From contig CAJYDM010000003.1 in the NCBI GenBank assembly GCA_913757435.1, positions 186,001-250,000 on the forward strand: a DNA stretch of 64,000 nt, read 5' to 3'. Numbering within the stretch: the stretch's first letter is position 1; every line of letters begins with the position of its first letter. Source of the DNA: Syntrophomonas sp. DTU019 (lineage in GTDB: Bacteria > Bacillota > Syntrophomonadia > Syntrophomonadales > Syntrophomonadaceae). The translations under genes and the position numbers were made by a program. Under the pieces are notes generated by a model, which made no database searches, had not been told where the DNA came from, and worked only from the letters and a program-made list of their open reading frames with translations. This document shows, piece after piece, positions 19,123 to 39,879 of the stretch.

Positions 19123-19515
19123 ATGCCAGAAGAGAATGAAGGCTTGCTTTTTCTGCCGAAAACGATTTTTGGCAGCCTGGAATGGAAGGCCATGGAGGAA
19201 CGTGAATACAGCCAGGGACCTGATGCTCTCCTGGAGGAACTGCTGCAGCAGAAGGCCTGGTCCAATGTGGAGATGCTCTGGGTAATAAAGAGGATGATCT
19301 ATTTCTACGGTCGTAAAGAAGACGTCCTTAAAAAGGCACCCGCTAAACGCTTAATGATGAATATGAATGATGTATTACGAGTTTTTTATCTGATTATGGA
19401 CATAGTCGATCCTGATCTAGATGACAACATGCGCAGTTACATAACCAATAAACTATCTGATGCAACCTGGGGCATCAATCCCCGCACCAGAGAATATCTT
19501 TATAAAATAGACTAG
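19123..19515 (+). CDS. Hypothetical protein, 130 residues
   Basis: I do not recognise this protein. It is helical, acidic at the N-terminus, with no signal peptide or membrane segment. LEELLQQKAWSNVEMLWVIKRMIYFYG and DVLRVFYLIMDIVDPDLDDNM look like packed amphipathic helices. ATG 19123 lies 13 bases after the stop of the LysM/NlpC gene and is preceded by a weak GGGGG. Codon use resembles the neighbours. It may share the NlpC transcript and is followed by the UDG-like gene. Confidence 0.6.
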   Translation: MPEENEGLLFLPKTIFGSLEWKAMEEREYSQGPDALLEELLQQKAWSNVEMLWVIKRMIYFYGRKEDVLKKAPAKRLMMNMNDVLRVFYLIMDIVDPDLDDNMRSYITNKLSDATWGINPRTREYLYKID

Positions 19516-19582: not shown

Positions 19583-20212
19583 TTGGTCAACGGTTTCAGG
19601 GAGGAAAATATCCGGCGTATCATCGATCTGGAGGACCGCATCTCCGAATGCCGCCGCTGCCCGGAACAACTGCATTGTGTGCGTCGACCGGCCATGGGCA
19701 AAGGTGAATTGCATCCTGATATCATGATCGTTTTTGAGACTGAAAACCAGTATACTGCCGACCTGGAACGGGTTATAGAACTGCGCCGGCTGATAAAGAG
19801 TTGTTTTGGTGCAGACCGGATTTATCACACTTATATGATGCGTTGCACCCCCAAGGTCTGCTCTACACGGCACAGTGTGTGCTGCTATACTGACAGCAAA
19901 CTTCTTGACAAGGATTATCATTGCATACTTACTGAAGAACCCTGCACCGGTGTTCACGTCAAACCGGACACTGCGCAAATCATCAATTGCTTGGCTTATC
20001 TGATAGAGGAGATCGAAATATTGTCCCCCCGCTATGTGCTGCTCATGGGAGAGCGGGTAGGTGAGTTTGTGCTCAAATGCTATGGCATATTTGACTGCTT
20101 ATCGCCGGGACAGTTCTTTTATTCCAACCAGCGCAGCTTCATAGTCGCCCACAATGAAAAGTTATTCACCAGTGATGAATGCCGTCAACTGGCCTCCTCC
20201 TGTTCCGCCTGA
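19583..20212 (+). CDS. Uracil-DNA-glycosylase-fold protein, Cys-rich, catalytic motif lost
   Basis: Family 4/5 UDG-like protein of 209 residues. Shared with the family are CRRCPEQ (C23, C26), the MMRCTP block (C88) and LSPRYVLLMGERVGEFVL, which matches the strand-helix after the fourth cluster cysteine (C136). Between C88 and C136 is an insertion of about 30 residues with five further cysteines (93, 100, 101, 114, 121). The catalytic GEAPG motif is replaced by FETENQY (51-57), and the late HPS motif reads AHNEKLF. I infer an iron-sulfur nucleic-acid-binding protein without ordinary glycosylase activity. TTG 19583 fits GGGAGG seven bases upstream better than GTG 19568. Confidence 0.6.
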   Translation: MVNGFREENIRRIIDLEDRISECRRCPEQLHCVRRPAMGKGELHPDIMIVFETENQYTADLERVIELRRLIKSCFGADRIYHTYMMRCTPKVCSTRHSVCCYTDSKLLDKDYHCILTEEPCTGVHVKPDTAQIINCLAYLIEEIEILSPRYVLLMGERVGEFVLKCYGIFDCLSPGQFFYSNQRSFIVAHNEKLFTSDECRQLASSCSA

Positions 20213-39699: not shown

Positions 39700-39727
39700 C
39701 TAGTATATCAAAAATATTATATTAACC

Positions 39728-39837
39728 TTTCTTCGGGGATGGGTGGAATTCCCTATCGGCGGTACAGCCCGCGAGCCGCAAGGCATGATCCGGTGAAACT
39801 CCGGGGCCGACAGTTACAGTCTGGATGGTAGAAGAAG
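39728..39837 (+). promoter_or_regulatory. FMN riboswitch (RFN element)
   Basis: All conserved RFN blocks are present in order: TTCGGGG, GGGTGGAATTCCC, CGGCGGTACAGCCCGCGAGCC, GATCCGGTGAAACTCCGG, GCCGACAGTTACAGTCTGG, and the closing GATGGTAGAAGA. It binds FMN and, with the terminator at 39880, stops transcription of ribD-ribE-ribBA-ribH when FMN is plentiful. Confidence 0.96.
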
Positions 39838-39879
39838 GGCTGGTTGAGCACGGTTTGTTCAGCCTAGCTTGTTATGTCC

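Follow-up and report, generated by a model that had tools for sequence, protein, structure and literature searches.

A conserved branch of the uracil-DNA glycosylase superfamily in Syntrophomonadia, without functional glycosylase motifs and with eight conserved cysteines

Uracil-DNA glycosylases (UDGs) of families 4 and 5 carry a [4Fe-4S] cluster, and PMC5295032 describes a flexible loop held in place by two of the cysteines. Disruption of the cluster is reported there to cost only part of the UDG activity, the cluster is read as a stabiliser of a loop, and motif B is described as a stabiliser of the protein–DNA complex. UdgX (family 7, TIGR03914) has a family 4-like fold, and its new function arose from a change in the flexible loop, with E52, N91, H178 and R184 as functional residues (PMC10359453). 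Here we describe a UDG-like gene in a stretch of 64,000 nucleotides from Syntrophomonas sp. DTU019 (the window), namely the open reading frame at positions 19583–20212 (+), which encodes 209 amino acids from a TTG start. As judged from its translation, profile searches, orthologues and a predicted model, the product is a UDG-superfamily paralogue with no catalytic motifs and eight conserved cysteines, and the branch that it represents is real, conserved and devoid of functional UDG motifs.

The original prediction, drawn from the letters of the window alone, had proposed a UDG fold and staked it on similarity in profile searches, which both Pfam and a profile search of PDB sequences returned. 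The window protein passes the curated cut-off of the Pfam UDG profile PF03167 (29.8 against 24.3 bits), and a profile search of PDB sequences found the Sulfolobus family 4 UDG 4zbx (E 1.1e-9). Its AlphaFold2 model – with a predicted local distance difference test score (pLDDT) of 86.3 and a predicted template modelling score of 0.83 – likewise has 4zbx as its best Foldseek match (E 4e-10), among 36 matches at E <= 0.001 with family 4 UDGs and UdgX at the top. Family 4 UDGs are also the best matches in the VIA structural comparison, the first of them with Z 18.9 and a root-mean-square deviation (rmsd) of 2.7 over 167 residues; 2d3y, which we take to be a family 5 UDG, shares the fold at a lower score (Z 16.2, rmsd 2.8, 166 residues). 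The protein is thus predicted to adopt the UDG fold, most like that of family 4 (4zbx, 4zby).

Profiles of individual UDG families recognise the branch below their curated cut-offs: the window protein scores 30.6 bits with NF040953 (cut-off 250), 20.4 bits with TIGR00758 (125.3) and 27 bits with the UdgX profile TIGR03914 (189.95). Among the 38 full-length orthologues, NF040953 and TIGR00758 each match all 38 at E <= 0.01 and TIGR03914 matches 28, and PF03167 matches 38/38 at E <= 1 when the aligned proteins (alignment A1) are scanned. PHROGs gave weak matches only (the unnamed phrog_4335 in 7/38 orthologues, two others in 1/38 each). Nine further Pfam families at E <= 1, the commonest being PF25031 (5/38, best E 0.0025), were taken as chance matches of cysteine-rich sequence.

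The motifs needed for base excision are missing from their expected places. The comparison covers 50 distinct orthologues from the examined loci – a part of the copies in the 53 genomes described below – and, as controls, 30 canonical UDGs, of which 27 belong to the same order as the window's genome and three to other parts of the phylum. A profile–profile alignment of the two sets (E 6e-9) places FETEN (residues 51–55; 19733–19747, +) at the position of motif A, GE(A/G)PG, opposite GEGPG of an intact canonical family 4 UDG (L099) encoded by the same genome. Counted as a string, motif A (GE[AGQ]PG) occurs in 0/50 orthologues and in 30/30 canonical UDGs, the control reading frames having been chosen by that very string (all 30 loci gave one). 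The motif A Glu itself is kept in 41 orthologues and replaced in nine. PFVG shows the same split (0/50 against 30/30) and falls in a gap of the profile alignment. Where all 30 canonical UDGs have the uracil-binding Asn, position 84 is Phe in 38 orthologues and Tyr in 12, including the window protein, whose Tyr84 is located by its alignment column within YHTYMMRC (19823–19846, +), a segment that ends on the cluster cysteine C88. This column was used in place of a loose string pattern for the Asn, which matched four of the 50 elsewhere in the chain.

The place of motif B, residues 191–193 by alignment, reads NEK in the window protein, and none of the 50 orthologues has a His at the motif B His position 191; HPS-like strings occur in six, all away from this place, the nearest (in L029) about five residues past it. 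His190, which adjoins the motif B place in the window protein, is found in two of the 50. The strings KRRIH (the R-loop of UdgX) and GEQPG are each absent from all 50 orthologues, which sets the branch apart from UdgX, in which motifs A and B are retained and KRRIH is present. The exchange of GEAPG for FETEN and the loss of the late HPS motif, both proposed in the original prediction, hold for the window protein, and all 50 orthologues likewise have no motif A and no HPS at the motif B place.

The cysteines, in contrast to the motifs, are kept. C23, C26, C88 and C136 align, in order, with C64, C67, C135 and C151 of L099, which we take to be the ligands of the family 4 cluster; by this alignment the window protein has the four cluster cysteines of family 4, as had been supposed from its sequence. 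The first two lie in C23-x2-C26-x5-C32 (19649–19678, +), together with a third cysteine common to canonical UDGs, and the profile alignment pairs C136 (19988–19990, +) with the fourth cluster cysteine. C23 and C26 align directly; C32, with a one-residue alignment gap beside it, is matched to C73 of L099 through the shared CxxCx5C spacing. What differs is the stretch between C88 and C136, 47 residues long compared with 15 between the third and fourth cluster cysteines in 29/30 canonical UDGs. The enlarged cluster loop (residues 89–127; 19847–19963, +) contains invariant C93, C114 and C121, and the spacing C-x20/21/24/25-C-x6-C-x14-C recurs in 50/50 orthologues. Within the loop, conservation in at least 37 of the 38 full-length proteins is confined to P90 (37/38) and these three cysteines (38/38). 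The flexible loop of PMC5295032 is probably the one enlarged here.

Altogether C23, C26, C88, C93, C114, C121 and C136 are present in 50/50 orthologues and C32 in 49/50, while in the remaining one (L037) a cysteine stands one residue further on; four of the 38 full-length proteins contain exactly these eight cysteines and no others. The five additional cysteines that the original prediction had placed between C88 and C136 are there in the window protein (93, 100, 101, 114 and 121), and its expectation that they would be conserved was right for three of them: C100 is found in only 3/38 orthologues and C101 in 19/38 (29/50 in the larger set). C200, in 25/50, is also variable. C32, which lies outside the insertion and did not figure in that prediction's list of cysteines, is conserved.

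Our preferred explanation, to which we give a probability of roughly 60%, is that the UDG-like protein is a repurposed metalloprotein and not a glycosylase, with one Fe–S cluster, a predicted second site of four cysteines (Cys4) and a binding role. In this paralogue of a family 4 UDG, which keeps the predicted fold and has lost the motifs for base excision, C23, C26, C88 and C136 would still hold a [4Fe-4S] cluster; C32, C93, C114 and C121 would form the second Cys4 site, occupied by zinc or by a second cluster, and would shape the enlarged loop so that it offers a new surface for binding. The protein would then act through binding, without catalysis, and as part of this explanation it probably no longer excises bases. 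The eight fixed cysteines fit the suggestion, made at the outset, of a two-cluster or zinc-binding protein. More tentatively, and with odds somewhat short of even for the combination, the sequences suggest a protein of UDG fold that holds two metal sites, in which the cluster loop has been rebuilt round a second Cys4 set – the spare C32 plus three new cysteines – to give a redox-linked or metal-dependent binder.

Several observations weigh against this explanation. The CxxCx5C spacing occurs in 29/30 canonical UDGs, where the counterpart of C32 is a fifth cysteine, and the fixation of C32 need not imply a new ligand role. Model confidence is lowest in the insertion (block mean pLDDT 57 to 77). 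In a genome-wide PF03167 scan, 26 of the 38 orthologues score above the cut-off, nine are listed below it and three (in G023, G025 and G040) are unlisted at E <= 0.001, so that some members show only a weak sequence signal. In five genomes the locus is present but the UDG-like gene is missing from it, which implies that not all hosts need it. Finally, the mean net charge of the 38 members is -0.8, compared with +5.3 for 30 canonical domains, and such near-neutrality somewhat disfavours binding to DNA.

The last point bears on the binding partner. That this is a nucleic-acid protein, as originally proposed, finds support in descent alone, against which stand the low charge and the absence of motif B. 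For the partner of the preferred metalloprotein we lean slightly towards a protein or redox partner, with DNA or RNA somewhat less probable.

The main rival is a redox or electron-transfer protein, in which two adjacent clusters would carry electrons or sense redox state, with no nucleic acid involved. Eight fixed cysteines would suffice for two sets of four, and both the positive charge, lower than in canonical UDGs, and the disappearance of motif B along with the rest of the pocket motifs are what such a function would allow. However, the examined neighbours (the orphan protein h130 described below, a cation P-type ATPase and a LysM/NlpC protein) include no obvious redox gene, and no electron carrier with a UDG fold is known to us, a point on which no search was made. 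On balance we regard this explanation as unlikely.

That the pocket now serves a new enzymatic reaction, by analogy with the covalent reaction that UdgX owes to its altered flexible loop, appears improbable. UdgX does demonstrate that a loop on this scaffold can seed a new function – and it may be the same loop that is enlarged here – while the retention of the motif A Glu in most orthologues and the position of His190 beside the motif B place in the window protein would both suit such an enzyme. Yet that Glu is replaced in nine of the 50, the place of UdgX N91 is Phe or Tyr in every orthologue, KRRIH is absent throughout, no orthologue has a His at position 191, and His190 is all but private to the window protein (2/50).

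The UDG-like gene was found in 38/61 relatives and in 53/63 genomes of its class, with internal stops in none, and in 15/398 genomes sampled across the phylum, every one of them from the same order. Ten class genomes gave no match: in five of them (L110–L114) h130 is present but is not followed by a UDG-like gene, and in one the contig ends early (L115); the remaining four (G017, G021, G070 and G073), 67 to 88% complete, were left out of the comparison of loci. A scan of named genomes with a single peptide pattern gave 41 loci, mostly titled Syntrophomonadaceae, Syntrophomonas, Thermosyntropha or Syntrophothermus, and the loci with other titles (L046 Gelria, L055 and L072 Bacillota, L066 Acetobacterium, L071 Firmicutes) have the same neighbours. 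The L066 contig, titled Acetobacterium sp. and carrying a syntenic locus, is possibly a misbinned Syntrophomonadaceae contig. A scan of viral contigs yielded 18 pattern matches and no relative, and with tblastn neither phages nor plasmids were matched at E 0.001.

Purifying selection on the gene is seen in the one usable comparison of four, where the ratio of non-synonymous to synonymous substitution rates (dN/dS) is 0.10; dS is saturated in the other three. That an ordinary UDG is here decaying towards loss, its cysteines retained by chance or for stability, is very improbable: the patchy absence from ten of 63 class genomes would suit it, but the lack of internal stops in all 53 matches, the low dN/dS and the fixation of eight cysteines over three taxonomic families do not.

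The genome that carries the window (G000, 3.2 Mb) encodes, besides the intact L099, a third PF03167 gene, whose product resembles the MUG family in sequence. With a canonical family 4 UDG and this third protein present, uracil repair need not rely on the UDG-like gene. The TTG start of the latter is preceded by GGGAGG and aligns with the starts chosen for its relatives (ATG in 29/38, GTG in five and TTG in four, with a start-picking procedure that favoured ATG). Promoter-like sites number 3, fewer than in shuffled sequences (mean 4.4), and terminator-like sites 5, within about one standard deviation of the shuffles (mean 3.1, standard deviation 1.8).

Upstream of the UDG-like gene lies h130 (19123–19515, +), an orphan helical protein of 130 amino acids, which we treat as a neighbour without implying partnership. 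It precedes the UDG-like gene in 49/49 loci (with some genomes represented twice), and the P-type ATPase follows in 44/49, sometimes only after 3 to 4 kb, the contig ending first in the other five. In the searches made here h130 was found in 44/61 relatives and in 5/149 genomes of a phylum sample, only within the same order, and it is kept in the five genomes whose locus is without the UDG-like gene. Its predicted model (pLDDT 84.2) has no PDB structure match at E 0.001, and the protein matches no Pfam family; a designed TIM barrel that came up in a profile search (E 0.0027) was judged to be a chance match. In one of the five genomes without the UDG-like gene, L110 (G009), h130 is followed from position 1627 by what we take to be a lepA-like gene, in place of the ATPase. 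Elsewhere in the window, a flavin mononucleotide (FMN) riboswitch scores 107.8 bits at 39725–39840.

In open-access literature, no title dealt with a comparable UDG, whether inactive or rich in cysteines, by searches that were in part poorly aimed. From the literature and database searches, a UDG fold that carries two metal sites would be the first such, so far in only one class of syntrophic anaerobes. For annotation, the finding means that these genes, which score as UDGs, should nonetheless not be named uracil-DNA glycosylases. For the family, what the [4Fe-4S] cluster contributes to UDGs of families 4 and 5 is only partly settled, and a branch that has lost the catalytic motifs while keeping the cluster cysteines, with four more fixed beside them, separates the cluster from catalysis, offering a natural experiment on what the cluster loop is capable of by itself.
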